Assembly: GCA_902774015.1 (NCBI GenBank) | Contig: CACYHB010000007.1 | Coordinates: 1-64,000, forward strand | Origin: Oscillospiraceae bacterium | GTDB taxonomy: Bacteria > Bacillota > Clostridia > Oscillospirales > Oscillospiraceae | Direction: 5' to 3' | Length of the DNA: 64,000 nt | Shown here: positions 5,032 to 58,919 of the stretch, one piece after another | How positions within the stretch are numbered: the first letter of the stretch is position 1 | How the letters are laid out: each line of letters opens with the position of its first letter | The notes under the pieces: generated by a model | Databases searched by the model: none | Seen by the model: only the letters and a program-made list of their open reading frames with translations | What the model was told of the DNA's origin: nothing | Made by a program: the position numbers and the translations under genes

Positions 5032-5134
5032 GATCCGGCAGTATTCAGATCGAAGAGACAGGCGGGCGGGCGATTCGCTCCGGAAAACCGGCGCTGGCGC
5101 CCGCTTTCCCAACCTGCCGGATGAAGGAGAAACC

Positions 5135-5641: not shown

Positions 5642-5677
5642 GCGGGCGTGAAGGGCAGCGGAGAAGGAGTGACGCCG

Positions 5678-5884: not shown

Positions 5885-5898
5885 ATCCCTATGCGGAA

Positions 5899-6092
5899 AG
5901 GCCTCCGGCGATGCCGGGGGCCTCAGACTGTAGACAAACCCGGTTCCGTCCAGCTTGGACTTGCAAGGGGGATTGTGAAGGGGGACGGGGAGTCCCCCTT
6001 CACGTACAATCTCAGCCGATTTTATAACCGATTCAAGGCTATAAAATCGGCCGCTTCAGCGTGCTGAGGCCTCCGGCGATGCCGGGGGCCTT
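5899..6092. repeat. Cluster of hairpins flanked by two copies of the same palindrome
   Basis: The palindrome AGGCCTCCGGC-GAT-GCCGGGGGCC occurs at 5899-5923 and again at 6067-6091. Between them lie GTGAAGGGGGAC...GTCCCCCTTCAC (5975-6003) and GCCGATTTTATA...TATAAAATCGGC (6015-6051). No ORF of note lies in 5885-6150. It could be a small mobile palindromic element, a terminator duplication or a structured RNA. Confidence 0.6.
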
Positions 6093-6162
6093 CGTTCTTG
6101 CCGCGCGCTGTCACCCGTCGGAATAGTATGGGTTAGCCCCATCCTTCCGAAAGGTGATCTTT

Positions 6163-22694: not shown

Positions 22695-22698
22695 TGAG

Positions 22699-24168: not shown

Positions 24169-25646
24169 CAGGAAGCGAAGACAGCCGCTTCGAAAACGAG
24201 CCGGGACTGCCGGTCGATATAACGAAGCTCCTGGCCAAGGCGTGGAAGCAGTTTCTGCGCAGCTGGTGGCTGCTGCTCCTGCTGATGGCTCTGTGCGCCG
24301 GCCTGTCTCTGGCCAGCCACGCTGCCCGTCACAGAGACCTGTACGAGGCATACGCCTCCTTTTCTGTCAGCGCGGGCAACCCCAAAGACGCTGCGTCTAC
24401 CTACAATACGCGCGTATCGCTGAATCAGCTGGGGAAGACGTTCCCCTTCATTCTGGAAAGCGGCGCTCTGAACACGGTCGTGCGGGAGAAGCTGGGCCTT
24501 GCTTCCCTCCCGGTCACGATCTCGGCAGAGGTCGTGAGCGACACAAGCCTCTTCCGCATCTCTGTGAGCGGCGAGGATCCGGAGCTTTGCCGGCAGGCGC
24601 TGGATGCGGTGATAGAGAACTATCCGCAGGTGGCGCAGTATGTGATCGGAAAGACGATGCTGACGATGCTGGACTATTCCGGCACGCCTGTGACGCCGGT
24701 TAATCTTGTCAGCCGGAGATCGCTGGTCATACGCGGCGCGAAGATCGGCGGGCTGATCTATCTGGCGGTCCTGGGGGCGCTGGTCGTTCTGCGCAGAACG
24801 GTGGAGAGCGAGAACGATCTCAAGGGCTATACGAGCCTTCGCTGTCTGGCCAGCATCCCCTTCGTGCTTCTGAAAAAGCGAAGCAGGAAGAAAAAACTGC
24901 TTCTCATCAACCGCACTTCGGTCCCACCCGCGTTTACGGAGGCCTTCAATCTTCTGCGAGTGCGTCTGCTGCGGGAGATGGACCGTAAAGGGAAGAAAGT
25001 GCTGATGCTTACGAGCGCGGGGGAACGGGAAGGGAAAACCACGGTTTCTGCTAATCTTGCGCTCTGCTGCGCGCAGAAGGGCTTTCGTGTCCTCCTGATC
25101 GACTGCGATCTGCGCCATCCCTCTGTGGCGGCGTGTCTGGGCGTCACGGTCGAGCGTGAGATCGCGGACGTGCTGAGAGGGCGGCTGACTGTCAGCGAGG
25201 CGATCGAGCCCTGTGTTGGGAGCCTGGATATTCTGGCCGGCGCAGTCAGTCTGAATGCAGCGGACATCCCAAAGGTTCTGACGACGGATGCGGTCGAAAA
25301 ACTGATGGAATACGCCCGGGAGCATTACGATTACATCTTTGTGGACACGCCGCCCTGCGGGATCATCCAGGATGCGCTGGCCATTGCGCCTGCCTGTGAC
25401 GCAGCCGTCGCCGTGATCCGGCAGGATTATCTTGCACGGACCAGGATCCTGGAGGTGCTGAATCTGTTGACGGATTCCAATGCCGGACTCATCGGCTGCG
25501 TGATCAACGGGGAGTCAGGCGGCGTCGGCTCCTACGGCCACGGACGCTACGGCTACGGCAGCGGCTACGGGGCCTACGGCCGGTACGGCAGATACGGGAC
25601 TTATGGCAGCAGCAAATACACCCAAAGGAAGACGAAGGCAAGATGA
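24165..25646 (+). CDS. Second Wzz-type protein fused to BY-kinase
   Basis: A 493-residue protein. Membrane helices lie at about 34-50 and 193-209. The kinase has Walker A TSAGEREGKTT (283-293), Walker A' LLIDCDLRHP (310-319) and Walker B IFVDTPP. The tail has a long Gly/Tyr-rich stretch (GYGSGYGAYGRYGRYGTYG), the expected tyrosine cluster. It overlaps the preceding kinase gene by 4 bases and has GGAGG as RBS. The two kinases are different paralogs, each resembling its counterpart at 54298 or 55953, so a whole cassette was duplicated. Confidence 0.9.
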   Translation: MTGSEDSRFENEPGLPVDITKLLAKAWKQFLRSWWLLLLLMALCAGLSLASHAARHRDLYEAYASFSVSAGNPKDAASTYNTRVSLNQLGKTFPFILESGALNTVVREKLGLASLPVTISAEVVSDTSLFRISVSGEDPELCRQALDAVIENYPQVAQYVIGKTMLTMLDYSGTPVTPVNLVSRRSLVIRGAKIGGLIYLAVLGALVVLRRTVESENDLKGYTSLRCLASIPFVLLKKRSRKKKLLLINRTSVPPAFTEAFNLLRVRLLREMDRKGKKVLMLTSAGEREGKTTVSANLALCCAQKGFRVLLIDCDLRHPSVAACLGVTVEREIADVLRGRLTVSEAIEPCVGSLDILAGAVSLNAADIPKVLTTDAVEKLMEYAREHYDYIFVDTPPCGIIQDALAIAPACDAAVAVIRQDYLARTRILEVLNLLTDSNAGLIGCVINGESGGVGSYGHGRYGYGSGYGAYGRYGRYGTYGSSKYTQRKTKAR

Positions 25647-44309: not shown

Positions 44310-44338
44310 TTGACAAAGCGGATGCGAGAGGTTAAAAT
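44310..44338 (+). promoter_or_regulatory. Strong promoter of precursor gene A, outside the inverted repeat
   Basis: -35 TTGACA (44310-44315), 17-base spacer, -10 TAAAAT (44333-44338). It is 43 bases left of inverted repeat A, so inversion would not move it. Confidence 0.85.
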
Positions 44339-44381
44339 TACCCTGTAACATAGCTTGCGGCAGTTTGCCGCGATCTTTCGA

Positions 44382-44491
44382 AAAGTATAACACTCTGTTA
44401 AATGGGAGGATACATAAATGAAAACTTGGACGATACCGCAGGTGGTGGTCGAGGCTTTCCGCGCCAATGAGTACGTGGCGGGTTCGTGCCA
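44382..44491 (+). repeat. Inverted repeat A (110 bp) covering leader, RBS, start and codons 1-24
   Basis: This segment matches the reverse complement of 45626-45735 with only four or so mismatches in 110 bases. It runs from AAAGTATAACACTCTG through GGGAGGATACATAAATG to GGTTCGTGCCA. Confidence 0.93.
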
Positions 44492-44852
44492 ACAGGCATT
44501 TGTTGCAGATGAAACAGCTATCAAAGCCGTCATGGCGGATAGACAGATTGATTTCAACTGTGAAGCTAGTGGTGAAGGCAGACCTCCTTCTTCTGGTCAG
44601 AGTATTTTTATCAGTAGTAGTAATTTGACTCAATGGAATATTGATCAAGGTTTGATTGGCCCGTATGAAGCGGGAGTTCACATCAGAGCAGATAACGCGA
44701 CTCAAGCGCAGCAGTATGTAGATCAGGGGCTTTTTGATAGGTACTATTCCCAAAGTGGCATGTATTATGGCGTAGTCAATATTTACTTGTTCCAATATAG
44801 TAAGGACTGGCATCCATCGTCTAAATTTGAAGGTTCTATAAAGTTTTCTTGA
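44418..44852 (+). CDS. Candidate peptide precursor A, W-x-x-P...NEYVA leader family
   Basis: A 144-residue soluble protein without a signal peptide. The N-terminus MKTWTIPQVVVEAFRANEY then VAGSCQ is nearly identical to that of the convergent gene at 45699; the rest (Gln, Ser, Asp, Tyr-rich) is different. It ends in KFS; its two paralogs end in NFS. The conserved leader and variable core, next to a radical SAM enzyme, a PqqD-like protein and an exporter, fit a RiPP-type precursor, but its length is unusual and it could instead be a secreted surface protein. The RBS is GGGAGG. The promoter at 44310 is close to consensus. Confidence 0.6.
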   Translation: MKTWTIPQVVVEAFRANEYVAGSCQQAFVADETAIKAVMADRQIDFNCEASGEGRPPSSGQSIFISSSNLTQWNIDQGLIGPYEAGVHIRADNATQAQQYVDQGLFDRYYSQSGMYYGVVNIYLFQYSKDWHPSSKFEGSIKFS

Positions 44853-44891
44853 GAGACCGCTGCTCTCCTACACAGTTTGATTCAGATTACA

Positions 44892-44920
44892 ACACCCCGG
44901 CGGGAATCCCGCCGGGGTGT
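44892..44920 (+). terminator. GC-rich hairpin after precursor A
   Basis: Stem ACACCCCGGCGGG / CCCGCCGGGGTGT with a tiny loop, followed by CGGCTTGC. No T-run. A near-identical hairpin follows precursor B, in inverted orientation (45207-45237). Confidence 0.65.
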
Positions 44921-44939
44921 CGGCTTGCAGAGAAAGCTC

Positions 44940-45150
44940 GTTTCTGTCATCCTGAGCGCAGCGAAGGATCTGAAGTCCCTCTTTATCGGAGAGAACAAGA
45001 GGAGTCATGCGCCATTATTCACGGAGGGGCGACGATGAGCCGCCCTCCGGTGCGGCAGAAAAAACGAGAAAAATCAGGCGAATTCGTTCAAACGTGCGAA
45101 TCCGCCTGATTCTTCTTGCTGAGCGGGCGGCTGATAGCCGCCCCTACTGT
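44940..45150. repeat. REP-like palindromes between the two precursor genes
   Basis: Three palindromic elements and one dispersed-type repeat lie here. TGTCATCCTGAGCGCAGCG (44946 on) is a repeat type found in many bacterial genomes. GGAGGGGCG...CGCCCTCC is at 45022-45048. AATCAGGCG...CGCCTGATT is at 45072-45111. GGGCGGCTGATAGCCGCCC at about 45125 is the same palindrome as inside the RAYT gene at 756. No gene is visible in 44853-45276. Confidence 0.75.
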
Positions 45151-45206
45151 GCCGAAGCTGCTTCGTGCGTTTTCGGAACATGCTCCTTTTCAGCCATCAG
45201 CAAGCC

Positions 45207-45237
45207 AGCACCCCGGCGGGATTTCCCGCCGGGGTGC
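45207..45237 (-). terminator. GC-rich hairpin after precursor B
   Basis: Stem AGCACCCCGGCGGG / CCCGCCGGGGTGCT. It is the inverted counterpart of the hairpin at 44892, including the adjacent GGCTTGC on the minus strand. Confidence 0.65.
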
Positions 45238-45276
45238 TGCTTTCTGTATTAAGCTGTGCAGATACGTAACGACCTA

Positions 45277-45699
45277 TCAAGAAAAGTTAGCAATAGTATA
45301 ATCGGTAACCGGATGATAATGGTTGTTGCCACCAGCGGGAAAATAGAAAGCATAGACTTTAGCCCAGTAAGAAGTACTAGTTGGGCTCTGCCTTACGACA
45401 TTCAAATGAAGAGTATTTTCTGCATAGTCCACATACTCTGGCTTAATTTGCATCCACGCTTCAACTGCTCCGTCCTTATCAATTTGTTTCCATTGATAAT
45501 CATTCAAAGCAGTACTAAACATATATCCTTCCGGATAACCCCAATCACCATCATCACCATTAAGATCAAGACTATTATTTCTTCTTATTCTTATGAGATC
45601 TTCTTCATTTGATACAAATGAGTCCTGGCACGAACCTGCCACGTACTCATTGGCGCGGAAAGCCTCGACCACCACCTGCGGCATCATCCAAGTTTTCAT
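45277..45699 (-). CDS. Candidate peptide precursor B, W-x-x-P...NEYVA leader family
   Basis: A 140-residue protein without signal peptide. The first 25 residues, MKTWMMPQVVVEAFRANEY then VAGSCQ, match precursor A at 22 or more positions; the remainder diverges (RIRRNNSLDLNGDDGDWG; ending ANFS). Its only cysteine is at position 24. The gene faces precursor A. The RBS and leader are the inverted copy of A's. Upstream of the repeat only a weaker promoter is visible (TTGTTT, 16 bases, TATAAC, the -10 inside the repeat), so B may be less expressed or silent in this orientation. Confidence 0.6.
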   Translation of the reverse strand: MKTWMMPQVVVEAFRANEYVAGSCQDSFVSNEEDLIRIRRNNSLDLNGDDGDWGYPEGYMFSTALNDYQWKQIDKDGAVEAWMQIKPEYVDYAENTLHLNVVRQSPTSTSYWAKVYAFYFPAGGNNHYHPVTDYTIANFS

Positions 45700-45735
45700 T
45701 TATGTATCCTCCCATTTAGCAGAGTGTTATACTTT
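45626..45735 (-). repeat. Inverted repeat B (110 bp)
   Basis: Reverse-complement partner of 44382-44491. Both repeats end at the same base of codon 25, so recombination between them would exchange the variable parts in frame. Confidence 0.93.
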
Positions 45736-45826
45736 GCGTAAAAAAATAAACAATTTAGTTAAATATAGCGCTAAATTGCAGGAGAGGATATGTTATGAAA
45801 AAGAACGAGACGAAACGAAAACGAAC

Positions 45827-46771
45827 CTATTCGAGCAGGGAAGAGAGCTTGTTCATGTTCCGGCGCTTGAAGTCCATAGAGGGGTGCACGTAGCGGTTCA
45901 TGGTGATGCTCACGCTGGCGTGGCCCAGGATCTCGCTGAGGCTCTTCACGTCGAAGCCCAGCTCCACGCAGCGGGTGGCGAAGCTGTGGCGGCAGGTGTG
46001 GAAGGAGGCGTCCCGGATGCCGCAGGCCCGCAGGGCCTCCTTGTAGCGGTTCTCCAGCGTGCGCGGCTCCACGAAGAAGGGCTTGCCCGTGAGGAAATAG
46101 CAGCCGTCCGAGCGCCGATAGGGCCGCAGCACCTCGATCAGGAAATCCGGCAGGGGAATGCTGCGCAGGGAACAGGCGCTCTTGGGCGGGGTGATGACGA
46201 TGCGGGTCTTCTGCTTTTCGTCAAAGGTCTGCAGCCGCTGGAGCGTGGCGCGCACGGTGAGGCTTTTGTCCTCCAGCGAGATATCGCCCCAGCGCAGGGC
46301 GCAGAGCTCGCCGATGCGGATCCCGGTATACAGGCTCAGCAGGATCCCCAGCCGGCAGAGATCCGGCTTCTCGCAGAGCCAGGCCGTCAGACGGCGCTGC
46401 TCCTCCTGCGTGAAGACCCGCAGCGGCTTTCGCTGCTGCCGCGCGACCAGACCGTGCAGATCCGCCGCGTCCGCGCCCCGGTCCTGGGCAAAGCGGAGCA
46501 CGCACTTGAGCACGGAGAGCACGTCCGTCACCGTCTTGGGGGCGAGCCCGGCGCCTTTCCTGCCCCCGCTCTGCAGAAGCTGCTGGCGGAAGGCCGCCGC
46601 GCGCTCCCGGGTGACGGCCTCCGGCGGCAGATCGCCGAAGGCGGGCAGCAGGTAGGAATTGAGAATGTTCACGTAGCGGACGCGGCTGGAGTCCTTCAGC
46701 TCCGTCTCCGGAGAGCTGAGCCACTGCCGCGCCCAGTCGGCAAAGCTGCCGGGGATTCGCGGGGGGTCCAT
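45827..46771 (-). CDS. Tyrosine recombinase/integrase next to the inverted repeats
   Basis: A 314-residue recombinase. Residues 8-95 are a SAM-like DNA-binding domain. The catalytic residues are all present: R152 in YTGIRIGEL, K197 in PPKSA, H258 and R261 in HTCRHSF, H284 in LGHASV and Y294 in MNRYVH. The ATG at 46771 follows AAAGGAGG. The stop lies 92 bases from inverted repeat B. No phage or plasmid gene accompanies it, so a local role in inverting the 44382-45735 segment is the simplest idea; an integrase of a lost element is the alternative. Confidence 0.9.
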   Translation of the reverse strand: MDPPRIPGSFADWARQWLSSPETELKDSSRVRYVNILNSYLLPAFGDLPPEAVTRERAAAFRQQLLQSGGRKGAGLAPKTVTDVLSVLKCVLRFAQDRGADAADLHGLVARQQRKPLRVFTQEEQRRLTAWLCEKPDLCRLGILLSLYTGIRIGELCALRWGDISLEDKSLTVRATLQRLQTFDEKQKTRIVITPPKSACSLRSIPLPDFLIEVLRPYRRSDGCYFLTGKPFFVEPRTLENRYKEALRACGIRDASFHTCRHSFATRCVELGFDVKSLSEILGHASVSITMNRYVHPSMDFKRRNMNKLSSLLE

Positions 46772-46824
46772 GCGTTTTCCTCCTTTCCCGCACCGTCCGG
46801 GGCGTCTCGGCGAGACGCCGGGCG

Positions 46825-46867
46825 AAAAAAATGAGGTGGATCCGTAGGAAGAACGAAAACACCTCAT
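46825..46867 (-). terminator. Terminator-like hairpin of the radical SAM operon
   Basis: On the minus strand ATGAGGTG and CACCTCAT pair around a 21-base loop, followed by seven T (46825-46831 on the plus strand are A). A second palindrome GGCGTCTCGGCGAGACGCC is at 46801-46819. Confidence 0.55.
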
Positions 46868-46934
46868 GGCTGACAACAAACCGTTTTTGACAGGGGCGGC
46901 GAAAGCCGCCTCTTTTGCCGGGGAGAGAAAGCCT

Positions 46935-48101
46935 TTACAGGCCGGGGGAGTCCTCCTGTGCGCACTCGCCGTCGGCAGCCGCCAGCTCCTCACGCATGAG
47001 CCGTTCCAGCTCCAGCGTGTAGCGGCAGGCGTAGTCCGGCTTGCCGTCCTGCCGCCCGGTCTCGTAGAGGGCAGAGGCGGGGCAGATATCGCAGAGGCCG
47101 CGGCGGGGGCAGACGGCGCAGTCGGCATGGATGAGCAGCGCCTCCATCCCGTCCTGGATCTGCCGCCAGGCGGCGGCAAAGCCGAGCGCGAACACGTCGG
47201 CCTCCGGGGAGCGCAGGATCACGCAGGGCCGCATATGTCCCTGCCAGTTGAGCGTGAAGGAGCAGCGCCCCGCCTTGCAGGTATTGCGCTCGGGCTTCCG
47301 CGCCTCCGGATGCTCTTCGGCGAAGCGGGCGCGGGCGTCCACCTCGGCGATCTGCCGGGCGCAGTAGGCCAGAAAGTCCTCCCGCTCGGGATAATAACGC
47401 CGGTGGATCTCGTGGGCGGTTTGGGCGGCCTCCTCCGCCGGAAGGCGGGAGGAGAAATCGAAGCCGCGGCTGCGCTCCCGCGTGGCGGGCATGATGCGGG
47501 GATCGATGCCGTAGACCAAATCGCGCTCTTTGCAGTAGTCCAGGAAGGCGGACAGGTCCTCCGCATTTTTCACGGTCATCGTGTAGCTGAGCTTCACGTG
47601 GACCCCGCGCTGCCGCAGCAGCTCGATGGCCCGCACCGTGCGCGCATAGCCGCCGGGCAGATGGCACAGCTCCCGGTAGGCCTTGTCGCTCGCGCCGTAG
47701 AGGGTGACGTTCACGCGACGGGGCGGGTTCTGTGCGAAGAAATCCGCCCACTCCTCGTCCAGCAGCGTGCCGTTGGTGTTGAGCATCAGGATGAAGCCCA
47801 TCTTCCGCAGGCCCAGGTACAGCTCCCGAAAGCCGGGGTAGAGCAGCGGCTCCCCGCCGGTCAGCAGCAGGAAAAGCACCCCGGCGTCACGCATCTCCTG
47901 CGCGACCGAGAGCCACTCCTCCGCCGTGCGCAGGCGGCCACGGGCCTCCATCTCCTCGCGCGACAGGCGGACGTAGCACATGTCGCAGTCCATGGTGCAC
48001 AGGGGCGTCACCTCGATGCTGCCGTTGAGGGGGATGCGTTTGGCGTCCGCCATGCGGAACAGCGCCTGCTCGCTCCGCTCAAAATCCTCGATGGGGTTCA
48101 T
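46935..48101 (-). CDS. Radical SAM/SPASM peptide-modifying enzyme
   Basis: A 388-residue enzyme. The radical SAM cluster motif is CTMDCDMC (C35, C39, C42) and GGEPLLYPG (82-90) is the SAM-binding loop. A C-terminal SPASM region has eight cysteines: C275, C280, C293, C328, C331, C337, C340 and C359, with the C-x2-C-x5-C-x2-C cluster CAVCPRRGLCDIC. SPASM enzymes form cross-links or epimerise residues in ribosomal peptides, or mature enzymes. It is translationally coupled (4-base overlap) to the PqqD-like gene, the usual recognition partner. The precursor-like genes at 44418 and 45699 are the best local substrates. Confidence 0.93.
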   Translation of the reverse strand: MNPIEDFERSEQALFRMADAKRIPLNGSIEVTPLCTMDCDMCYVRLSREEMEARGRLRTAEEWLSVAQEMRDAGVLFLLLTGGEPLLYPGFRELYLGLRKMGFILMLNTNGTLLDEEWADFFAQNPPRRVNVTLYGASDKAYRELCHLPGGYARTVRAIELLRQRGVHVKLSYTMTVKNAEDLSAFLDYCKERDLVYGIDPRIMPATRERSRGFDFSSRLPAEEAAQTAHEIHRRYYPEREDFLAYCARQIAEVDARARFAEEHPEARKPERNTCKAGRCSFTLNWQGHMRPCVILRSPEADVFALGFAAAWRQIQDGMEALLIHADCAVCPRRGLCDICPASALYETGRQDGKPDYACRYTLELERLMREELAAADGECAQEDSPGL

Positions 48102-48436
48102 TTTTCCCCGTCCTCCCGGATCAGCGTGCCCAGATCCAGACTCTCCAGCAAGAAACGGTACACGCCGTACTCGATGAACTTCGGGTCGCCGTTCTCACTC
48201 TCGAACTCGTGCAGGGCGTTCTCCAGCACCTGGGCGGGCGTTGCGCCCTTCCTGAAGTGCCGCCAGAGCCAGGCCGAGGTCTCGTTGAGGGTCAGCATGG
48301 TGTTTTCAAAGCGGCCGGATTCCACCACCGGCACCACCACGCACTCGTCCCCGATCTCACGCAGAATGAAGTCCGGATTCGTCACGAGCCGGGTGTTCCA
48401 GTCCACGTCATTGAAGATGATCTTGTTTTCGTCCAT
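48098..48436 (-). CDS. PqqD-like RiPP recognition element protein
   Basis: A 112-residue protein of the PqqD family. It begins with a short strand region (WNTRLVTNPDFILREIG) and has LTLNETSAWLWRHFRKGA, the typical PqqD/RRE signature. PqqD proteins are small winged-helix proteins that bind the leader of a ribosomal peptide and present it to the radical SAM enzyme. It overlaps the HPr-kinase-like gene by 29 bases and the radical SAM gene by 4, so all three are made together. Confidence 0.9.
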   Translation of the reverse strand: MDENKIIFNDVDWNTRLVTNPDFILREIGDECVVVPVVESGRFENTMLTLNETSAWLWRHFRKGATPAQVLENALHEFESENGDPKFIEYGVYRFLLESLDLGTLIREDGEK

Positions 48437-49301
48437 ATCCGTTCTCCTGTCTTCTTTCGTCGTTTTCCAGCGTATCCGCGAGCAGCTCCACCGTCTCGCG
48501 GGAAATGGTGCAGGCCAGATGGTAGACCGGGATCTCGCGCGTGAGCGCCTCGATCAGATCCATGGCCCGGTTTTGAAAGTCCCGGCTCCAGCGGTTGACC
48601 GTGATCTGGGTGTAGATCTGTGAAAAGGCCGCCATCGGCCCCAGCCGCTCGATCCGGTTCTCCGGGGCCTGGCTCAGCATCACGATCGCCCGGATGGGCG
48701 TGCTTTCGTTGTTGCAGATCTCCGAGCTGCCGCAGACCGGCCAGCCGCAGGCCTGCCACACGCCGCCGGCCTTCTGCAGCAGCGAGCGGTCCCCGTTGAG
48801 CTGCTTTACGCCGCGGTACCGCTCCCAGAGCCCGGCCTGGGTGCTCTTGCCCGTGCCGGAGGGCGCGGAAAAGAGGATCGCCCCGCGCTCCGTGCGGATG
48901 TAGGCCGAGTGCAGCACCAGCGCATCGCGCCCGATCATCCGCCGCTCAAAGGCGAAGAGGGAGGAGAACATCGTGTCGTATTTGAGCTCCCCCAGCACCC
49001 GGGGCAGCAGCAGGATCTCCGCGCTGTCCGCCGCCGTCTCCCGGTAACAGGCATAGGGCGCCGCGCCCGTCTCGCTGACGTAGCGGGTCTCCAGCCCGTC
49101 CCGCTCCAGCACCAGCAGATCCTTCCGCAGCGCGATCCGGCGGCCCTCCGGCTCCGGCAGCGCGTCCGCGAGCGCGATCCGGTAGGCGTAGTCCGGCGCG
49201 TCGGCGTCCGATTCAAATTTCATGAAATTTTCCGGGGGCCGCACCTCGTCCGGACACGAAAGCCGGAACGAAAAGTCCCCGATGCGAAAGCATTTGTCCA
49301 T
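48408..49301 (-). CDS. HPr-kinase-like P-loop protein
   Basis: A 297-residue protein. The P-loop is FSAPSGTGKST (144-154); LNGDRSLL (168-175) matches the second motif of HPr kinase-like proteins. The N-terminal 120 residues are a separate domain. HPr-kinase-related proteins together with PqqD-like and nucleotidyltransferase proteins form the known but uncharacterised HPr-rel-A group, seen in peptide and polysaccharide loci. ATG 49301 follows TGGAG. It heads the minus-strand operon and is divergent from the fusion gene at 49467. Confidence 0.85.
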   Translation of the reverse strand: MDKCFRIGDFSFRLSCPDEVRPPENFMKFESDADAPDYAYRIALADALPEPEGRRIALRKDLLVLERDGLETRYVSETGAAPYACYRETAADSAEILLLPRVLGELKYDTMFSSLFAFERRMIGRDALVLHSAYIRTERGAILFSAPSGTGKSTQAGLWERYRGVKQLNGDRSLLQKAGGVWQACGWPVCGSSEICNNESTPIRAIVMLSQAPENRIERLGPMAAFSQIYTQITVNRWSRDFQNRAMDLIEALTREIPVYHLACTISRETVELLADTLENDERRQENGYGRKQDHLQ

Positions 49302-49334
49302 GCGCGCTGCTCCAGATTTTTCAGTCGTATCAAC

Positions 49335-49466: not shown

Positions 49467-50798
49467 ATGGACCGTTCCCGGCTGTGCTTTCTCGCGCTGC
49501 TGCGCTGCGCCCTGGGCGCCGCGCCCTCGGCTGAAATCGGCGCGCCGGGGGAGGAAGTGTTCCGCCTCGCCCAGACCCAGACGCTGCTGCCCGTGCTCGT
49601 CGATACGGCCGCGCGTCTCTGCGGGCCTGCCTGCGTCCCACCCGCTTACCGGCGGACCGCCGCCCGCCTGACTTCGTTCCAGACCGCGCAGAACGTCCTG
49701 TTTCAGAAGCTGCTCGACGGCCTGCTGGACGCGGGGCTTTCGCCCCTGTCGCTGCGCGGCGCGTCGGACCGGGTGCTCTTTCCCGCGGGGCTGCCCCTCC
49801 TCTGCGACGTGGAGGAGCTGGCCGTCCGGCCGGAGGAGCGGGAAGAATGCGAGCGCATCCTGCTGGATCACGGCCTCGCACCCGAGAACGGTGAACCAAA
49901 CGTGTTCTGCCGCCGGGAGAAGCGCCTCTGCGTCCGGCTCACGGTACTGCCCGACTTTCCCGTTTCCCGCCTGCTGACAGGCCCGGACGGCGCGCGCTGC
50001 CCCGTCCCCGCTCCGACGCCGCAGCTGCTGTGGCGGCTGCGCTGCGCCTCGGCAAATCTCTGCCGCGGCGGCGTCGGCCTCGCGGATCTGTGCGGGATCT
50101 GCCTGCTGGCCGAACGGTATGACGCGGAGATCGACTGGCCCGCCCTTCGGGAAGAGCTGGAAAGCGCCGGTCTCGAGGCTTTCGCTGCCGCCGTCTTTCA
50201 GATCGGCCGGGAAACCCTGGGGCTGCAGACAAGGGAGCTCTTTCCGCAGATATCGGCCGGGCCGCTGCTCGACGCGATGCTGGAGGGCGGGGTCTACGGC
50301 TGCGAGGGCGATCTTCGCGCCTATGGCGTTGAAGAGGGCCGCCCCGGCGGGCAGATGAACACCTTCGCCTATCTCACGGCGCTGCGCGCCCTGATCGAGG
50401 GCGGACGCAGCCTGACGCTGACCGTCTCCGGCAGCAGCATGACGCCTTTCCTCTGCCCCCGGCGCGACCGGGTCCGGCTCTCTCCGCCGGAACGACCCCT
50501 GCGCCGCGGCGACGTCGTGTTTTACCAGCAGGGGGGCGGGCAGTTCATCCTGCACCGCATCCTGCGCGCTTACGGCGGCGCGGAGCCGCGCTTTGACATC
50601 GTGGGCGACGCCCAGACCGCCGTCGACCGCGGCGTCCGCCGGGAGCAGATTTTCGCTCTGGCTGTCGACGCCGAGCGCAAGGGCCGTCCGGCCGGACCGG
50701 GCCATTTCTGGTGGCGCTTTTTCGCCGGCCCATGGCTGCGGCTTCTGCCGCTGCGCCCCGTTCTTACGCGCCTTTACGCTGCGCTTCGGGGCAGATAG
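49467..50798 (+). CDS. Fusion of nucleotidyltransferase-like and S26 signal-peptidase-like domains
   Basis: A 443-residue protein without signal peptide or N-terminal membrane helix. Residues 1-300 follow the PF14907 nucleotidyltransferase layout, but the acidic pair is degraded (CDVEELAV in place of SDxDL); GGVYG near 275 is shared with the protein at 27856. Residues 315-400 are an S26 peptidase of the SipW/ER type: TVSGSSMTPF (Ser324), RRGDVVFYQ, FILHRIL (His363) and GDAQTAVD (Asp387). It may cut the precursor leader in the cytoplasm before export. The fusion is unusual. RBS AAAGGGG; the exporter gene follows. Confidence 0.8.
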   Translation: MDRSRLCFLALLRCALGAAPSAEIGAPGEEVFRLAQTQTLLPVLVDTAARLCGPACVPPAYRRTAARLTSFQTAQNVLFQKLLDGLLDAGLSPLSLRGASDRVLFPAGLPLLCDVEELAVRPEEREECERILLDHGLAPENGEPNVFCRREKRLCVRLTVLPDFPVSRLLTGPDGARCPVPAPTPQLLWRLRCASANLCRGGVGLADLCGICLLAERYDAEIDWPALREELESAGLEAFAAAVFQIGRETLGLQTRELFPQISAGPLLDAMLEGGVYGCEGDLRAYGVEEGRPGGQMNTFAYLTALRALIEGGRSLTLTVSGSSMTPFLCPRRDRVRLSPPERPLRRGDVVFYQQGGGQFILHRILRAYGGAEPRFDIVGDAQTAVDRGVRREQIFALAVDAERKGRPAGPGHFWWRFFAGPWLRLLPLRPVLTRLYAALRGR

Positions 50799-50832: not shown

Positions 50833-52617
50833 ATGGATCAACATACAGACGAAAACAAAGCGTTTTTCAACTCCCTTCATACGCTGCGCGTCAAGATCAA
50901 GGACGGCACCTTCCATGAGATCCTGGAAGACTGGCGCTGGATCTTCTCCTACAGCAAGCGCTACAAGGGAGCCATCCTCTTCTACGTGCTGCTGGGCGTC
51001 TTCAGTACCTCGCTCGGCCTGGTGGCCAGCGTGGCCAGCAAGTATATGGTGGACATCATCACCGGCTATCAGACGGAGAAGCTGGGGATCTTCATCGGCC
51101 TGACCGTGGGCAGCGCCCTCTTCAGCCTGATCTTCTCCAACCTCATCGGCCGCATCTCCACCAAGCTCAGCATCGATATCAACAACGACATCCAGGCCGA
51201 TATCTTCGACCAGATCATCGACGTGGACTGGAAGGCCATCAACAAGTATTCAAACGGCGATATCCTCAACCGCTTCAACGGCGACGTGGGCACGGTCAGC
51301 GGCAACGCCATCGGCTGGCTGCCCTCTATCATCATCTCCATCTACAACTTCATCGTCACCTTCTTCCTGATCTGGCACTACAACAAGGTCATGTCCCTGC
51401 TGGCCTTCGCCAGCGCGCCGATCATGCTGCTGATGAGCAAGTATCTGATCACCAAGCAGCGGGAATACTCCAAGAAGGTGCGCGAGACCAGCAGCGAGAT
51501 GATGAGCTTCGAGGTCGAGACCTTCTATAATTTTGACACCATCAAGTCCTTCGGCGTCATGGAGAGCTACGGCCGCAAGCTGCGCGACTGGCAGAAGAAG
51601 TTCAAGAAGCTCAGCCTGGACTACAATCTCTTCACCATCAAGACCGGCATCTTCATGTCCCTGATGGGCATGGTCATCCAGTACGCCGCCTTCGGCTACT
51701 GCCTGTTTTTGATGTGGACCCACCAGATCACCTACGGCACCATGACGCTCTTCCTCGAACAGAGGGGGAGACTCGCCGGCGCTTTCAACAGCGTGGTCGG
51801 CATCATCCCCTCCTTCCTGACAAGCTCCGTCTCCGCCCACCGCATCCGCGAGCTCATCGATCTGCCCCGGGAACGTCACATCCCCGAGAGCGAGGAGCTG
51901 CGGGAACTGGCCGAGGAGGGCGTGGAGGTGCGGATGACGGACGTGAGCTTCGCCTATCTGGAGGGCCAGCAGGTCATCCAAAACTCCGATTTCCGCGCCG
52001 CGCCCGGGGAGATCGTGGCGCTGGTCGGCCCCTCCGGCGAGGGGAAGACCACCATGATCCGCCTGATGCTCGGCCTGATCCGGCCCGATGAGGGCGTGGC
52101 CCTGCTTCGCGGCAGCGATGGCAGGGAAGTGGAGATGAACGCGGACAGCCGCTATCTCTTCTCCTACGTGCCCCAGGGCAACACCGTCCTGTCGGGCACC
52201 GTGGCCGAGAACATGCGCATGGTAAAGGAGGACGCCACCGACGAGGAGATCGTCGAGGCGCTGAAGATCGCCTGCGCCTGGGATTTTGTCTCCAAGATGC
52301 CGGAGGGCATCAACTGCAAGATCGGCGAGCGCGGCCGCGGCTTCTCCGAAGGCCAGGCCCAGCGCATCGCCATCGCCCGCGCCGTCCTGCGCGACGCGCC
52401 GATCCTGCTGCTGGACGAGGCCACCTCCGCGCTTGACGTGACCACCGAGCGCCAGGTGCTGCGCAACATCGTGCAGCGCAGGCCCAACAAGGTCTGCATC
52501 GTGACTACCCACCGCCCCACGGTCATCAATCTCTGCCAGCGGGTCTACCGCGTGATGGAGACCCACGTCACCGAGCTGAGCGAGGAGGAGTCCAGCCGTA
52601 TGGTCATGGACTTCTGA
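50833..52617 (+). CDS. ABC exporter (membrane and ATPase domains in one chain)
   Basis: A 594-residue half-transporter. Six membrane helices lie between residues 40 and 320; the ATPase has Walker A GPSGEGKTT, a signature GFSEGQAQRIAIARA and Walker B ILLLDEATSALD. The signature is FSEGQ, not LSGGQ. It has no C39 peptidase domain at the N-terminus, so leader removal must be done by another protein, for which the S26-like domain upstream is a candidate. It probably exports the modified peptide as a dimer. RBS GGAGTGAG. Confidence 0.9.
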   Translation: MDQHTDENKAFFNSLHTLRVKIKDGTFHEILEDWRWIFSYSKRYKGAILFYVLLGVFSTSLGLVASVASKYMVDIITGYQTEKLGIFIGLTVGSALFSLIFSNLIGRISTKLSIDINNDIQADIFDQIIDVDWKAINKYSNGDILNRFNGDVGTVSGNAIGWLPSIIISIYNFIVTFFLIWHYNKVMSLLAFASAPIMLLMSKYLITKQREYSKKVRETSSEMMSFEVETFYNFDTIKSFGVMESYGRKLRDWQKKFKKLSLDYNLFTIKTGIFMSLMGMVIQYAAFGYCLFLMWTHQITYGTMTLFLEQRGRLAGAFNSVVGIIPSFLTSSVSAHRIRELIDLPRERHIPESEELRELAEEGVEVRMTDVSFAYLEGQQVIQNSDFRAAPGEIVALVGPSGEGKTTMIRLMLGLIRPDEGVALLRGSDGREVEMNADSRYLFSYVPQGNTVLSGTVAENMRMVKEDATDEEIVEALKIACAWDFVSKMPEGINCKIGERGRGFSEGQAQRIAIARAVLRDAPILLLDEATSALDVTTERQVLRNIVQRRPNKVCIVTTHRPTVINLCQRVYRVMETHVTELSEEESSRMVMDF

Positions 52618-53424: not shown

Positions 53425-54294
53425 ATGAAAAAACTGAGAATTGCGATCGTTGTGTTCTTCGTCATCGTGGCGGCGATCTTCGGCGTTCGTCGGGTACATG
53501 AGGAGCTGACTGCCGACTACTCCGCGCCGGTGATCCAGTCCATCAACGACCATATCGAGGCCAGTGTCAAGGTCACGGACCAGGAACTCCTGGTGGGCAT
53601 GGGCACCGGCGACAATCTGGACGGCAACGTCAACGAGACGCTGATGGTGGTGTCCAAGTCCAAGTTCATCCAGAAGGGCACCCGCTACGTCAATTACGCC
53701 GCCTTTGACCAGAGCAACAACGTCGGCACCTACACGAGGGTGCTGACCTACACGGATTATGTGTCGCCCCATTTTTCGATCCATGAGCCGCTGGTTTTTC
53801 TGGCGGGAAGCTCCCAGACGGATATTCTGCGCAACGTCGAAGCCTATGACTGTCTGGACGGCAACATCACCTCCCAGATCATGCTGACCTGGGGCGCGTC
53901 GCAGCCCATCAGCGAGAGTGCACAGGCGCAGACGATCAACCTGCAGGTGACCAACAGCGCCGGCGATACCAGCACACTGGAGCTCCAGGCCCTGTCGGAG
54001 GACTATGAAACCTACTACCGGCAGTCCCCCCATCTGAAGGACTATGTGATCTACGTTAAAGTGGGGGAGCAGCCCGATTACCGCTCCTATATCGACGGGA
54101 TCTGGAACGGTTCGAAACGCGCCTTGAAGGACACGGAATTTGATGTGAACACCGATTTCCAGATCGACAGCAGCGCCGTGGATCTCTATACCCCCGGCAG
54201 TTACACCGTGACCTATTCCCTGAGCCGGGCGCTGGCGGACGGGACCCGCCAACCGCTGGGAACGACGGTCATGTACGTGGAGGTGGAGGAATAA
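53425..54294 (+). CDS. Membrane-anchored Ig-like protein (paralog of 21849)
   Basis: A 289-residue protein with one N-terminal membrane helix (residues 3-20) and an outer region of beta-rich repeats. YTDYVSPHFSIHEPLVF and YDCLDGNITSQI align well with YSDYVSPRFSIRTPLVF and QDCLDGDLSASI in the first cassette. RBS TTGGAG. Its position before two Wzz/BY-kinase genes is the same as in the first cassette, so it is probably a fixed accessory part of this export system. The function is unknown. Confidence 0.78.
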   Translation: MKKLRIAIVVFFVIVAAIFGVRRVHEELTADYSAPVIQSINDHIEASVKVTDQELLVGMGTGDNLDGNVNETLMVVSKSKFIQKGTRYVNYAAFDQSNNVGTYTRVLTYTDYVSPHFSIHEPLVFLAGSSQTDILRNVEAYDCLDGNITSQIMLTWGASQPISESAQAQTINLQVTNSAGDTSTLELQALSEDYETYYRQSPHLKDYVIYVKVGEQPDYRSYIDGIWNGSKRALKDTEFDVNTDFQIDSSAVDLYTPGSYTVTYSLSRALADGTRQPLGTTVMYVEVEE

Positions 54295-54297
54295 AAC

Positions 54298-55956
54298 ATG
54301 AATAACGACGATTTTTCCTCTGTCATTGAGCGGCTGGACCTGTACAGCATGCTCCGGGACGTGGTCCGGAACCTCTGGGCGATCATCCTCGCCGCGGCGG
54401 CAGTGGCCATGATCGTGAACATGAATGTCCGCTCCGATTTCCAGAGCACCTACTCCACCACGGCGACCTTCGTCGTGACCTCCAAGACCTCCAGCAATTA
54501 CGCCTACAGCAATCTGTCCGCGGCGTCCTCCATGGCGGACAGCTTCACGAACATCCTCAACAGCCGCCTGCTGCGAAAAAAGGTCTGCGAGGATCTGGGT
54601 ATTTCCTCCTTCAACGCCAGAACAAGCGCCAACGTGATCCAGGGCACCAATCTGATGACCCTGCAGGTCACGGCGGACTCCCCCTGGAATACCTACCGTA
54701 TCATCCGCTCCATCATGAAAAACATCGGCGGCCTGACCCAATACGTCTCCGACGACATGGTGATGGAAGTGCTGCAGGAGCCGCCCGTTCCCACGGGCGC
54801 CGACGCGTCCTTCTCTGCCTTCAATCAGACGAGAGAGGCGTTCCTGGTTGCGTTTTTCGTCGTTGCGCTGGCTTTTATGTATCTTTCGTATATGAAAGCG
54901 ACGATCAAGAGCGAAAAGGACATGGAGGACAAGCTCGACGCCAAGAGCCTCGGCATGGTGTACTACGACCCCACCTACCGCTCTCTGGGCGCACTCCTCC
55001 GGAGGGAAAAAAACCGGCACATCATCACCGACATTGCCGCGCCTTTTGAATTTGTGGAGCGCTATAAGAAGATCAGCGCGAATATCTCCGCCAAGGCGCA
55101 GCAGTCCGGCGCCAGGATCATCCTGGTCACCAGCCTGCGGGAGCATGAGGGCAAATCCACGGTTTCGGCGAACCTGGCCCTGTCCCTGGCCCAGCAGTCC
55201 TACTCCGTGCTGCTGATCGACGGCGATATGCGCAGACCGACGCAGAACCATGTTTTCCTCAAGGCAAAGGACAAGCTGCAGCATTCTCTGGTGGATCTGC
55301 TGCAGGGAAAGGCCAGCATGGCCGAGGCCCTTCGCTATGACGCCGAGCGCGGCATCCGGCTTTTGCTCAACGACAGGAACTACCCCAACTCCACGGACAT
55401 CGTCTCTTCTCCCATGATGGAGAAGCTCTTGAACGTGGCCTCGAAGCATTTTGACTACGTGATCGTCGACTCGCCGCCCATGTCCCTGATGGCGGACGCC
55501 GAGGTCCTGGCGGATCGTGCGGATCTGAGCGTTCTCGTGGTGCGCTACGACCACTCCCTGGCGCCGGAGCTGAACGACGCCATCGACTCTCTGCGCGACT
55601 GCCGCGCGGAATTTGCCGGCTGCGTCCTCAACGAGGTGCAGACCATGCCCGGCATGCGGCACACCGTCGGCGGCTACGGCGGCTACGGGCGCTACTCGCA
55701 TTACCGCCGTTACGGCGATTACAACGCCTACGGCCACTATGCCACGCAGAACGAGGACAGCGGCAGCGAGCGGAAAAACCGTTCCGAGCGCAGAGACAGC
55801 GGCAACTCCCGGAGTCGGAGCGGCAGTGCGTCTCCCCGCAGCGGCAGCAGATCTGCCGTGCGCAGCGGCAGGGAAAAGAAAAACAGCGCCCCGGCAGACG
55901 CGGCGATGCCCGAGATCTCCGGTGAAACTGAGAATCAGGGAGGTGAGCAGGTATGA
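54298..55956 (+). CDS. Wzz/BY-kinase fusion with Ser/Arg-rich tail
   Basis: A 552-residue protein. Wzz membrane helices lie at about 26-42 and 180-198. The kinase part has Walker A TSLREHEGKST (278-288), Walker A' LLIDGDMRRP (305-314) and Walker B VIVDSPP. After the tyrosine cluster (GYGGYGRYSHYRRYGDYNAYG) it continues with about 75 extra residues rich in Ser, Arg and Gly, absent from its counterpart at 22699. RBS GGAGG. It starts 3 bases after the previous stop and overlaps the next gene by 4 bases. Confidence 0.9.
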   Translation: MNNDDFSSVIERLDLYSMLRDVVRNLWAIILAAAAVAMIVNMNVRSDFQSTYSTTATFVVTSKTSSNYAYSNLSAASSMADSFTNILNSRLLRKKVCEDLGISSFNARTSANVIQGTNLMTLQVTADSPWNTYRIIRSIMKNIGGLTQYVSDDMVMEVLQEPPVPTGADASFSAFNQTREAFLVAFFVVALAFMYLSYMKATIKSEKDMEDKLDAKSLGMVYYDPTYRSLGALLRREKNRHIITDIAAPFEFVERYKKISANISAKAQQSGARIILVTSLREHEGKSTVSANLALSLAQQSYSVLLIDGDMRRPTQNHVFLKAKDKLQHSLVDLLQGKASMAEALRYDAERGIRLLLNDRNYPNSTDIVSSPMMEKLLNVASKHFDYVIVDSPPMSLMADAEVLADRADLSVLVVRYDHSLAPELNDAIDSLRDCRAEFAGCVLNEVQTMPGMRHTVGGYGGYGRYSHYRRYGDYNAYGHYATQNEDSGSERKNRSERRDSGNSRSRSGSASPRSGSRSAVRSGREKKNSAPADAAMPEISGETENQGGEQV

Positions 55957-57371
55957 ATGAGAGCGTTCCCGTAAAAACTGATGAAGTGGAACAGCTGGAC
56001 ATCGTCTCCTTCCTGTTCGACGCCCTGCACCGCCTGCGCAGCTTCTGGTGGATCATCCTGCTGCTGACGGTCGTTTTCGCAGGCGCATTTTATTACCGCT
56101 CGAGTGTGAGTTATGTGCCGAACTATGTGGCGGAGTGCACTGTATCCGTGGAAATCGTCAACGGCGGCACCTATTCCAACCAGAACACCGCCCGCCAGAT
56201 GGGCGTGGTCTTCCCCTATATCCTCACCAGCGGCGCCCTGTCCGACGTGATCGCCAACGACCTGGGGACGGACGGTGTGCCGGGCTCAATCTCCGTCAAC
56301 GCCATTGAAGGCACAAACCTGCTGACCATCTCCGTGAGCGGAAGCGATCCGGAGATGACATACCGGATCCTGCAGTCTGTGCTGAAAAACTATCCCGAGG
56401 TGGCCCAGTACGTGGTGGGTCAGACCAAGCTCACGCTCATCGACGACAGCGGCGTACCCGGCGATAGCGGCAGAGAATCCGTGCTGCGCGGTTCGGCGAC
56501 CAAGGGCGCCGTGGTGGGCTTCATGATCGGCCTGGTGCTGCTGGTTTTGTACACGGTCAGCTCCCGTACGGTACGCACGGAGGAAGATCTTCGGGCCTTG
56601 TTCAATGTTCCCTGCCTCGGTACGCTTCCTGTCTGCAAAAAGAAAAAGCGCAGCCGCAATGTCAGCAGGGAGATCAACATCCTCTATGACACGAACCAGG
56701 GCGCCTATATTGAAGCGATGCGTCTGATCCGCACGAGGCTGGAGCGCCAGATGGGCGACAAGCAGGTGCTGATGGTCACAAGCTCCATCCCCGGCGAGGG
56801 CAAATCCACCGTGGCGGCCAACCTGGCTGTGTCCATGGCGAAGAAGAACAAACGGGTCGTGCTGGTGGACTGCGACCTGCGCAATCCTACCCAGGGCAAG
56901 CTCTTCAATCTCCAGGGCGGCAACGCCGGCCTCGTCTCCGTGCTCACGGGAAAGGCCCGGCTGGAAGAAGCGCTGGTGGAAATCAGCGACAAGGGCGGCC
57001 CTCTGGGGCTGACCCTGCTGCCCGGCAGCGATAAAGAATCCCGCCTCGTGGAGATCATGGGCAGCGAAGCCATGAGCCAGATGGTGGAGGAACTGAAAAA
57101 ACAGGCGGACGTGGTCATCCTGGATACGCCGCCCTCCGCCATGCTGGTGGACGCAACGCTTCTGTCCCGCCATGTGGACGGGGTGGCCTATGTGGTGATG
57201 AGCGACTTTGCGAAGCGGCGCTTCATCTACAAAGGGATGGAAGAGCTGAGCAACAACGGCGTGCCGATCTTCGGCTGCATCCTCAACGGCGGCAAGAAGC
57301 ATTCCGGCCGCGGCTACGGTTACGGCTACTACGGCTACGGCTACGGTTACGGTTCCAAGAGCAAATCCTGA
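55953..57371 (+). CDS. Wzz/BY-kinase fusion with canonical P-loop
   Basis: A 472-residue protein. Membrane helices lie at about 31-48 and 185-202. Walker A SSIPGEGKST (277-286) is canonical, Walker A' is LVDCDLRNP and Walker B VVILDTPPS. The tail is a Gly/Tyr repeat (YGYGYYGYGYGYG) for autophosphorylation. It is the counterpart of the kinase at 24165. Of the four BY-kinases in the window it alone has PGEGKS. Confidence 0.92.
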   Translation: MNESVPVKTDEVEQLDIVSFLFDALHRLRSFWWIILLLTVVFAGAFYYRSSVSYVPNYVAECTVSVEIVNGGTYSNQNTARQMGVVFPYILTSGALSDVIANDLGTDGVPGSISVNAIEGTNLLTISVSGSDPEMTYRILQSVLKNYPEVAQYVVGQTKLTLIDDSGVPGDSGRESVLRGSATKGAVVGFMIGLVLLVLYTVSSRTVRTEEDLRALFNVPCLGTLPVCKKKKRSRNVSREINILYDTNQGAYIEAMRLIRTRLERQMGDKQVLMVTSSIPGEGKSTVAANLAVSMAKKNKRVVLVDCDLRNPTQGKLFNLQGGNAGLVSVLTGKARLEEALVEISDKGGPLGLTLLPGSDKESRLVEIMGSEAMSQMVEELKKQADVVILDTPPSAMLVDATLLSRHVDGVAYVVMSDFAKRRFIYKGMEELSNNGVPIFGCILNGGKKHSGRGYGYGYYGYGYGYGSKSKS

Positions 57372-58496: not shown

Positions 58497-58919
58497 TTAT
58501 GAGAAGTTTTGGGTCGACGTTGGCGTAAAGGGAGGGGGAGTGCTGCTGTCATATGTGCCCGTAGGGTATAATAAACCGGTTTTGCCGTCACCGAGGAAAT
58601 ATACGTCGTACTGATCGACAAAATAATTCGTTGGGAAGGTATAGCTTTCTGTGAGCAACAGATAGGTATAATTACTGTAAAAATTTATGTTGTTCAACCA
58701 CCTGTTCGCAGAAGTACTCCCTTCCAGTACGATCGATGTGCTGGTTTTATCATCGATATCTTCGTTGCTGCTCAGTATAGTCCGCAATCCATTCCCGTCC
58801 AGATCGATATATTTCGCCTCCGATGAAAGAGAAACACCCGCCATCTGCGCGCATGCGGCTACGTATTCATTCGAAGCAAAGCCTTCGACCAAAATCTTCG
58901 GCATCGTCCAGATTGTCAT
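58497..58919 (-). CDS. Candidate peptide precursor C, third member of the NEYVA family
   Basis: A 140-residue protein starting MTIWTMPKILVEGFASNEY then VAACAQ, a diverged form of the leader in precursors A and B, and ending QNFS. The middle is Asn/Ser/Thr/Tyr-rich with no further cysteine after position 23. The true start is 58919 because AAGGAGG lies just upstream; the frame remains open 35 codons further, without an RBS. It has its own consensus-like promoter. It lacks the 110-bp repeat, so it is not part of the invertible segment. It is about 10 kb from the modifying enzymes. Confidence 0.6.
   Translation of the reverse strand: MTIWTMPKILVEGFASNEYVAACAQMAGVSLSSEAKYIDLDGNGLRTILSSNEDIDDKTSTSIVLEGSTSANRWLNNINFYSNYTYLLLTESYTFPTNYFVDQYDVYFLGDGKTGLLYPTGTYDSSTPPPFTPTSTQNFS

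Follow-up and report, generated by a model that had tools for sequence, protein, structure and literature searches.

Here, we describe a candidate DNA inversion switch in a 64,000-nucleotide stretch of DNA from an Oscillospiraceae bacterium, probably a gut bacterium. This stretch, here the window, comprises positions 1 to 64000 of an 88.9-kb contig in a 2.78-Mb draft genome. It carries two convergent genes for precursor proteins, gene A (44418..44852, plus strand) and gene B (45277..45699, minus strand), whose 5' ends lie in inverted repeats beside a gene for a tyrosine recombinase (45827..46771, minus strand). Judged from its sequence, the segment is very likely an inverton that is flipped by the adjacent recombinase, and we infer that inversion takes place in cells. 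The main effect of such an inversion would probably be promoter choice. DNA inversion is a well-known means of varying bacterial surfaces, and if this segment flips, the choice between two proteins made at a surface-sugar gene cluster would probably change.

The locus has the features by which tyrosine-recombinase invertons are recognized, namely, inverted repeats that bracket the segment, a core site of the recombinase family with identical spacers, and a nearby recombinase with its catalytic residues. The initial annotation of this DNA had proposed that the segment is invertible and that the adjacent recombinase is the likely enzyme, and the core sites found at the repeat ends, which rank first and second in the window, support this proposal.

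Inverted repeats and predicted recombination sites

The left copy of the long repeat (44382..44491, plus strand) contains part of a recombination site, the ribosome binding site (RBS), the ATG, and codons 1 to 24 of gene A, and the right copy (45626..45735, minus strand) has the equivalent content for gene B. The copies are inverted and identical at 106 of 110 positions, with mismatches at 44398, 44431, 44435, and 44480; one is in the 5' untranslated region, two change codons 5 and 6 (T/M and I/M), and one is silent at codon 21. The 110-bp inverted repeats with about four mismatches that had been described initially are thus confirmed, and so is their content of 5' leader, RBS, ATG, and codons 1 to 24, as a comparison of the arms by part makes clear. 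Identity is 12/60 outside the 25-bp recombination site, 22/25 within the site, 16/16 from the site to the ATG, 69/72 over codons 1 to 24, and 53/108 over the next 36 codons. The extended arms (44376-44523 and 45594-45741) are 89% alike, and the whole 2.78-Mb genome contains two copies of the 110-bp repeat. Chance falls far short of explaining the likeness of the repeats, and the abrupt transition from leader to core is real.

The gene for the recombinase ends at 45827, 91 bp outside the right 110-bp repeat, as expected from the earlier placement of a tyrosine recombinase gene just beyond it. The 314-amino-acid (aa) product matches Pfam Phage_integrase (4.2e-23) as well as XerA and Int chains in the PDB, and the catalytic residues R-K-HxxR-H-Y are all present.

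Relatives of this recombinase were collected from two sources. At E<=1e-75, a search of 400 genomes of the family matched the window recombinase itself and nine relatives (44-49% identity), ten in all, and a search of the genus added seven further relatives (29-43% identity). Exact inverted repeats were sought around each of these 16 relatives. Seven of them lie between two inverted copies of a 25-bp palindrome with a 10-5-10 layout, for example, TTCGCAGAGT-TAGCC-ACTCTGCGAA in locus L190. The spacers differ among the seven loci and are the same within each pair, an agreement that is partly by construction, because the pairs were found as exact repeats. Palindromic bracketing pairs of this kind have the layout of tyrosine-recombinase inversion sites. 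In L038, where the 25-bp site is lacking, a more distant recombinase relative is flanked by a perfect 442-bp inverted repeat (589-1030 and 2416-2857).

From these seven loci, we built a symmetric site matrix with one vote per locus, in which the spacer was ignored and the window was excluded; the nine relatives lacking a palindromic bracketing pair, L038 included, did not contribute. The likeness between the window and relative sites was noticed before the matrix was built, and its register was fixed by the palindromes, not by the window. Among the 64,000 positions of the window, the two best matches are at the repeat ends: the right site (45716..45740, TACGCAAAGT-ATAAC-ACTCTGCTAA as read on the minus strand) ranks first with 22.28 bits, and the left site (44377..44401, plus strand, TTCGAAAAGT-ATAAC-ACTCTGTTAA) ranks second with 21.99 bits. 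The third-best match has 12.2 bits, and in 300 simulated 64-kb sequences drawn from the window's first-order Markov chain, none reached the observed maximum or second-best score. A search of the 2.78-Mb genome with up to 3 mismatches allowed gave three consensus matches, of which two are the window sites, against one for the reversed control.

The matrix also performs outside the window. In leave-one-out matrices, both members of the pair were the two best matches in five of the seven loci (L194, L195, L196, L197, and L199), and the full matrix found a 28-bit site in L200, a locus that was not used to build it. Among the nine relatives in L194-L202, the site lies 51-147 bp past the recombinase stop codon in seven and 487 bp past it in L199, and no matrix site was found in L201. 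The right site of the window lies 86 bp downstream of the recombinase stop codon. Over 1.44 Mb of other loci, seven matches exceeded 15 bits, and the best of these (19.1 bits) is just after the second recombinase of L098, a locus described below.

The 25-bp core sites start 5 bp beyond the outer ends of the 110-bp repeats, a point that the initial annotation had missed, and their 5-bp spacers are identical (ATAAC/GTTAT) and in inverted order. With the left spacer at 44387-44391 and the ATG of gene A at 44418, the predicted crossover is 27-31 bp upstream of the start codon. The 25-bp site thus predicts the exact crossover bases and can be used for a sequence-based search of the family's other invertons. 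One described group may already belong here. Inverton group 139, with invertase group 35, comes from Clostridia in 32 of 33 cases and combines motif-grouped inverted repeats with a tyrosine-type recombinase within 5 kb, according to the available text of PMC11892184. The window is alike in all three respects (Clostridia, inverted repeats with a shared motif, and a nearby tyrosine recombinase), and group 139 and the window recombinase may be the same family, a comparison made by description and not by repeat motif. In the main text of PMC11892184, the terms radical SAM, RiPP, and bacteriocin occur 0 times each, unlike the setting of the window.

A predicted choice between two complete genes

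The recombinase would recognize the inverted 25-bp sites at 44377-44401 and 45716-45740 and recombine them at the identical ATAAC/GTTAT spacer, inverting about 1.34 kb. The segment carries two complete, convergent paralogous units, and each unit comprises an RBS, a leader, a core, and a 3' hairpin of its own. Which gene lies behind a fixed promoter on the left, A or B, would depend on the orientation, and in the assembled orientation it is A. The other gene would face the right flank, where the scan gave no such promoter and there is a weak terminator-like hairpin. When the inverted order is modeled, the left flank is followed by B, which keeps its own leader and an intact reading frame. A crossover in the 5' untranslated region would not separate leader from core, so whole genes would change places.

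The left promoter (TTGACA-17-TAAAAT, 44310..44338, plus strand) matches the consensus at 11 of 12 positions and lies outside the segment. The scan considered the sigma-70 consensus only and gave 3 sites in the region, an unremarkable number given that shuffled sequences averaged 1.4. At the 11/12 threshold, there is a promoter on the left flank and none on the right, which agrees with the earlier description of a near-consensus promoter on the left side only, outside the repeat. Between this promoter and the left site is a small hairpin (44357..44371, plus strand) whose fold is not remarkable (z -1.2). Between the recombinase gene and the right site, an A+T-rich hairpin followed by a T-run (45751..45778, minus strand; -6.2 kcal/mol, z -2.75, 4/200 shuffles as good) may be a weak terminator, an assignment that we make with some doubt.

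Strong hairpins also follow gene A (44892..44920, plus strand; -29.5 kcal/mol, z -5.45) and gene B (45206..45239, minus strand; -39 kcal/mol, z -8.25). The initial annotation had counted these inverted 3' hairpins in favor of inversion. The hairpins exist, but they carry no weight as evidence and we rejected them as support: both are self-complementary, so every copy doubles as an inverted copy.

The products of the two genes are proteins of 144 aa (A, leader MKTWTIPQVVVEAFRANEYVAGSC) and 140 aa (B, which has A's leader except at residues 5 and 6), and both end in Ser. An earlier statement that the remaining parts of the two genes are unrelated was not upheld, since the cores align with a Smith-Waterman score of 56 that was reached by 0/300 shuffles. 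A and B are old, diverged paralogs whose 5' ends have been homogenized secondarily. A crossover at the 25-bp site leaves this homogenization of the leader codons unexplained; our guess is gene conversion between the repeats together with selection for fit to one pair of PqqD-like and radical S-adenosylmethionine (SAM) proteins, both encoded nearby.

Under the scheme first proposed for this locus, homologous recombination inside the 110-bp repeat would swap the cores behind fixed leaders, joining each leader to the other variable region. It is true that the repeat extends to codon 24 and that the frames agree, so any crossover inside the repeat would stay in frame. However, the site-specific core cognate to the recombinase is found where the repeat ends on its outer side, in the 5' untranslated region and upstream of the ATG, and exchange at the site or at codon 24 would give nearly the same products. 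A domain swap would bring no benefit, because all residues of the leaders except 5 and 6 are the same. We therefore regard a core swap as very unlikely.

Promoter choice between complete genes has a precedent in the surface-layer (sap) inversion of Campylobacter fetus, in which the genes are complete, their 5' ends are conserved, and inversion picks the one that faces the promoter. The window resembles sap and similar two-gene promoter switches in its complete genes with conserved 5' ends. It differs in that C. fetus has another recombination system, large S-layer proteins, and no maturation cassette. In the R64 PilV shufflon (Rci) and in hsdS inversion, coding segments are exchanged within one protein. 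The candidate switch shares with these systems a site-specific inversion with an adjoining recombinase, but it has two complete genes and a crossover predicted to fall before the start codon. For the same reasons, we rejected a shufflon, with its fixed N-terminal part and startless 3' cassettes, and the shufflon logic that had been suggested for this segment gives way to promoter choice, which fits instead. Inversion at hsdS is named in the available text of PMC5903667 and PMC11892184.

Precursor genes and recombinases in other genomes

To place the locus among its relatives, we drew on a scan of a genome collection with five radical SAM sequences, which gave 74 loci. The family considered here consists of 70 of these (L051-L120); the counts leave out L121-L124, which are remote radical-SAM matches, and L042-L044, which duplicate L081, L069, and L093. 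Gene counts per locus cover the fetched stretch only, and many contigs are short. A recombinase match, with four queries, was found in 2/70 loci, L098 and L101.

L098, which comes from Thomasclavelia (class Erysipelotrichia) and was found by the radical SAM scan, has four precursor genes of alternating orientation around a 388-aa recombinase (2012-6678) that is 22% identical to the window recombinase. When the 5' boxes of these genes are compared, five of the six pairs match at 95-100% over 44-64 bp and the sixth at 85% over 122 bp. Read by eye, boxes a to d agree in the outer flank between a and d, in the spacer between a and b, and at the inner edge between a and c. All three quartet pairings are thus represented, which points to reassortment, since a tree lacking recombination or parallel change allows one pairing. 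Some site pairs in L098 are direct, and excision would therefore be possible there.

Such reassortment, and the possibility of excision, would suit sites that serve the integron-like capture and loss of precursor cassettes rather than on/off switching, in which case the A+T-rich cores would have been acquired. The base composition of the window is in line with this idea, with a G+C content of 41% (A) and 38% (B) in the cores, 58% and 57% in the leader codons, 67% in the recombinase gene, and 68% in the radical SAM gene. In the window, however, there are two standout sites in inverted order and no cassette array, and a pair in inverted order can only invert. We consider cassette capture quite unlikely as an account of this segment.

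Two further loci resemble L098. L149 has an ortholog of the L098 recombinase (78% identity) between inverted precursor genes, and L178 (Massilimicrobiota, from the same genome as L110) has a frameshifted ortholog (68-79%), again between inverted precursor genes. The L178 homolog (681-1786) is split between two frames near its C-terminus, by either a frameshift or an assembly error; the start of the contig falls within a further copy of the leader box. The recombinase clade of these three loci is unrelated to that of the window. We do not accept the Thomasclavelia 5' box as a proven site, since the case for it is weak. The core of the box, GGTATAATCTTATTTGTA, is also found, exactly or with one or two changes, ahead of precursor genes that have no recombinase match in the fetched stretch (L156, L110, and L179), which suggests that the box is at least partly a shared promoter.

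Across loci, the orientation of precursor genes is associated with recombinases. A recombinase or a fragment of one was present in 3/3 loci with opposite-strand precursor pairs less than 5 kb apart (L098, L101, and L178) and in 0/16 same-strand sets (Fisher p 0.001). This count used only loci that had been found without a recombinase query, the 5-kb limit was picked after seeing the loci, L110 and L178 come from a single genome, and the match in L101 is a fragment. With L067 included, p is 0.0035; with L067 and L179 included, the counts are 3/5 versus 0/16 (p 0.0075).

Relatives of the window recombinase itself also occur near such genes. In L201 (25-4457), a 46% relative is directly upstream of ORFs (open reading frames) that, by eye, are for PqqD, precursor-like, HprK, and radical SAM proteins, the precursor-like ORF ending in NASA; we name this, by eye, as a second meeting of the window recombinase family with such a cassette. 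Neighbors of other relatives include a sugar transferase (L195), a protein with an S-layer domain (L196), and, in L199, a 1390-aa repeat protein and a glycosyltransferase. Other relatives neighbor mobile-element-like genes (L198), a gene for an AraC-type regulator (L197), and a gene of the rRNA-methylase family (L194).

Several observations weigh against an active inverton. Only one orientation is known, from one assembly. The left site departs from the consensus at 3 positions and the right site at 2, so site activity could be reduced. Leave-one-out matrices failed in L198, where the true sites rank second and third, and in L047, where one site ranks second and its partner is not in register. 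A palindromic bracketing pair was not found around 9/16 relatives (some contigs end there), and in the seven with such a pair, it brackets the recombinase itself, whereas in the window it does not. The window recombinase is without the N-terminal arm-binding domain present in L045 and in most of the relatives' listed ORFs, and upstream of it there is no reading frame for such a domain. The parallel offered by L149 is weakened by its shared 5' stretch of only about 30 bp (90%). No recombinase match was found with the opposite-strand pairs of L067 (8 kb apart) or L179 (5.2 kb apart, with a weak second leader). In L071 (6767-9481), two of three same-strand precursor genes are 99% alike over 119 bp around the start codon and the locus has no recombinase match; 5' homogenization thus also arises where no recombinase is matched. 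Finally, 102 genomes of the genus were searched with a leader profile, and the four with a match at E<=1e-5 are the window's own and G012, G118, and G136. In the latter three, the cassette adjoins CpsB/Wzc genes and is accompanied by one or two same-strand precursors, and their fetched stretches contain no recombinase match and no inverted leader pair. The initial annotation had asked after related genomes that keep the repeats where the recombinase is absent; no such case was seen, as these three have neither in the stretches fetched.

Some of these observations fit an alternative in which an ancient inverted duplication left A and B as fixed inverted paralogs. The recombinase and its sites would then be decayed leftovers, and the segment would no longer invert. 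Gene conversion would keep the leaders alike to fit a single PqqD/radical-SAM pair. Leaders are homogenized where no recombinase is matched not only in L071 but also in L110, L095, and L082, the cores are old paralogs, the recombinase has no arm-binding domain, and the sites are imperfect. Nevertheless, the spacers are identical, the best two sites of 64,000 fall at the repeat ends, the catalytic residues are intact, and opposite-strand pairs less than 5 kb apart go with recombinases. Fixed paralogs are thus an unlikely explanation, though one that deserves some weight. An assembly artifact, in which two loci were wrongly joined at the repeat, might be suspected in a fragmented draft of 88 contigs with 5.9% contamination. 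It is hardly credible given that a single 88.9-kb contig has a coherent (exo)polysaccharide locus on both sides of the repeats, that the cassette occurs in 70 other loci, and that similar inverted pairs occur in other assemblies. An inverton with a presumably active recombinase, and with a presumed consequence for expression, accounts best for the sites.

The maturation cassette and its setting

Upstream of the recombinase gene, and separated from it by a terminator-like hairpin (46824..46869, minus strand; -19.4 kcal/mol, z -3.65), are minus-strand genes for a radical SAM protein (46935..48101; PF04055, 3e-27), a PqqD-like protein (48098..48436; PF05402, 1.2e-5), and an HprK-like, ScmC-like kinase (48408..49304; TIGR04249, 1.1e-8, below cut-off, with no Pfam match). 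On the plus strand are genes for a nucleotidyltransferase (NTP_transf_5) fused to an S24/S26-like peptidase region (49467..50798; PF14907, 2.6e-11; PF00717, 0.004, below cut-off) and for an ATP-binding cassette (ABC) exporter with a fused ATPase (50833..52617; Pfam scan), followed by CpsB and Wzz/Wzc-like ORFs (the Wzc label is by eye). This adjacent cassette probably handles A and B. The description of the segment as a peptide precursor next to a modification cluster holds for the link to the cluster, while "peptide" is loose for proteins of 140-144 aa.

Among the 70 family loci, a leader gene is present in 64 (it is absent from the stretches of L059, L070, L077, L091, L092, and L117), and matches were found to PqqD in 44, HprK in 51, ABC in 39, and CpsB or Wzc in 36. 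A common order is PqqD, precursor, radical SAM, HprK, ABC, nucleotidyltransferase/peptidase, and CpsB, and the precursor gene is commonly immediately upstream of the radical SAM gene on the same strand. In L051, whose radical SAM protein is the closest match of nearly full length (61%), one precursor gene stands alone facing the radical SAM gene with no recombinase between them, and the contig ends soon after. L117 has a close cassette, but its radical SAM frame breaks off beside a transposase-like ORF, and it is uninformative on the precursor side.

Precursors number 96 in all (91 from the 70 loci, 3 from the window, and 2 from L149). They are mostly about 120-160 aa long and fall into 13 classes by blastp, and 95/96 have a C-terminal serine, the exception being an 86-aa frame in L108 that ends early. 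The third window precursor (58497..58919, minus strand; leader MTIWTMPKILVEGFASNEYVAAC) also ends in Ser and has no repeat. Its leader is related to those of A and B, its core has nothing significant in common with that of A (221/300 shuffles as good), and its likeness to the core of B is at most weak (10/300 shuffles as good). Representative precursors matched no Pfam or NCBIfam model above cut-off, and we rejected PF16242, PF05851, PF13457, and TIGR02678, all below cut-off. For the largest class (class 0, 49 members), a beta-rich core was predicted from 35 aligned sequences with a mean predicted local distance difference test (pLDDT) score of 85.8; the predicted structure has no PDB match at E<=0.001. 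The prediction for precursor B, from 4 sequences, is unusable (mean pLDDT 40.7). A PADLOC search gave no match for A, B, or the recombinase.

A conserved leader common to diverse cores, beside a PqqD-like protein and a maturase, is the leader/core organization seen in ribosomally synthesized and posttranslationally modified peptides (RiPPs). The modification chemistry can be proposed by analogy. In lasso-peptide systems, kinases add phosphate to a conserved C-terminal Ser, and hexoses at this residue are associated with a nucleotidyltransferase homolog, according to the available text of PMC9266682. By analogy with these kinases, the likeliest reaction of the HprK-like kinase would be phosphorylation of the near-invariant C-terminal serine. 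The cassette is like the PadeK and PsmK/PsmN lasso systems in its PqqD-type protein, kinase, nucleotidyltransferase, and conserved C-terminal Ser; it differs from the systems described there in its 140-aa substrates, radical SAM enzyme, and polysaccharide-locus setting. No lasso cyclase (asparagine-synthetase-like) or B2 protease was recognized among the ORFs read at 36-64 kb, ten of whose proteins were Pfam-scanned. SynChlorMet offers another likeness, with the HprK-like ScmC as the best named kinase model and ScmE/F among the radical SAM matches (NCBIfam), all far below the models' cut-offs.

The cassette looks undescribed, and a non-exhaustive search of the literature by title and abstract start, with subscription journals mostly absent, found no inversion that chooses between substrates of a radical-SAM cassette. 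A broader proposal may be put forward tentatively, and it is doubtful that all of its parts hold together. In gut Firmicutes, surface proteins would have a leader read by a PqqD-like/radical-SAM pair. The HprK-like kinase and the nucleotidyltransferase encoded in the same exopolysaccharide locus would phosphorylate the near-invariant C-terminal Ser of these proteins and perhaps attach it to polysaccharide. Two or more unrelated tyrosine-recombinase clades would have come, independently of one another, to act at the 5' ends of the genes for these proteins, making a capsule-linked protein coat phase variable.

Other features of the window were noted in passing. Between the convergent genes A and B (44940-45150) are short repeat-like stretches of a CATCCTGAGCGCAGCGAAGGATCT type and a GCGGCTGATAGCCGCCCC type, which by eye resemble intergenic repeats in L042-L044. 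Near the start of the window is a minus-strand ORF (374-934) that, from its motif, resembles a REP-associated transposase. Two sets of Ig-like plus Wzc/Wzz-like ORFs with the same layout (21849-25646 and 53425-57371) appear, by eye, to be two polysaccharide-assembly modules.

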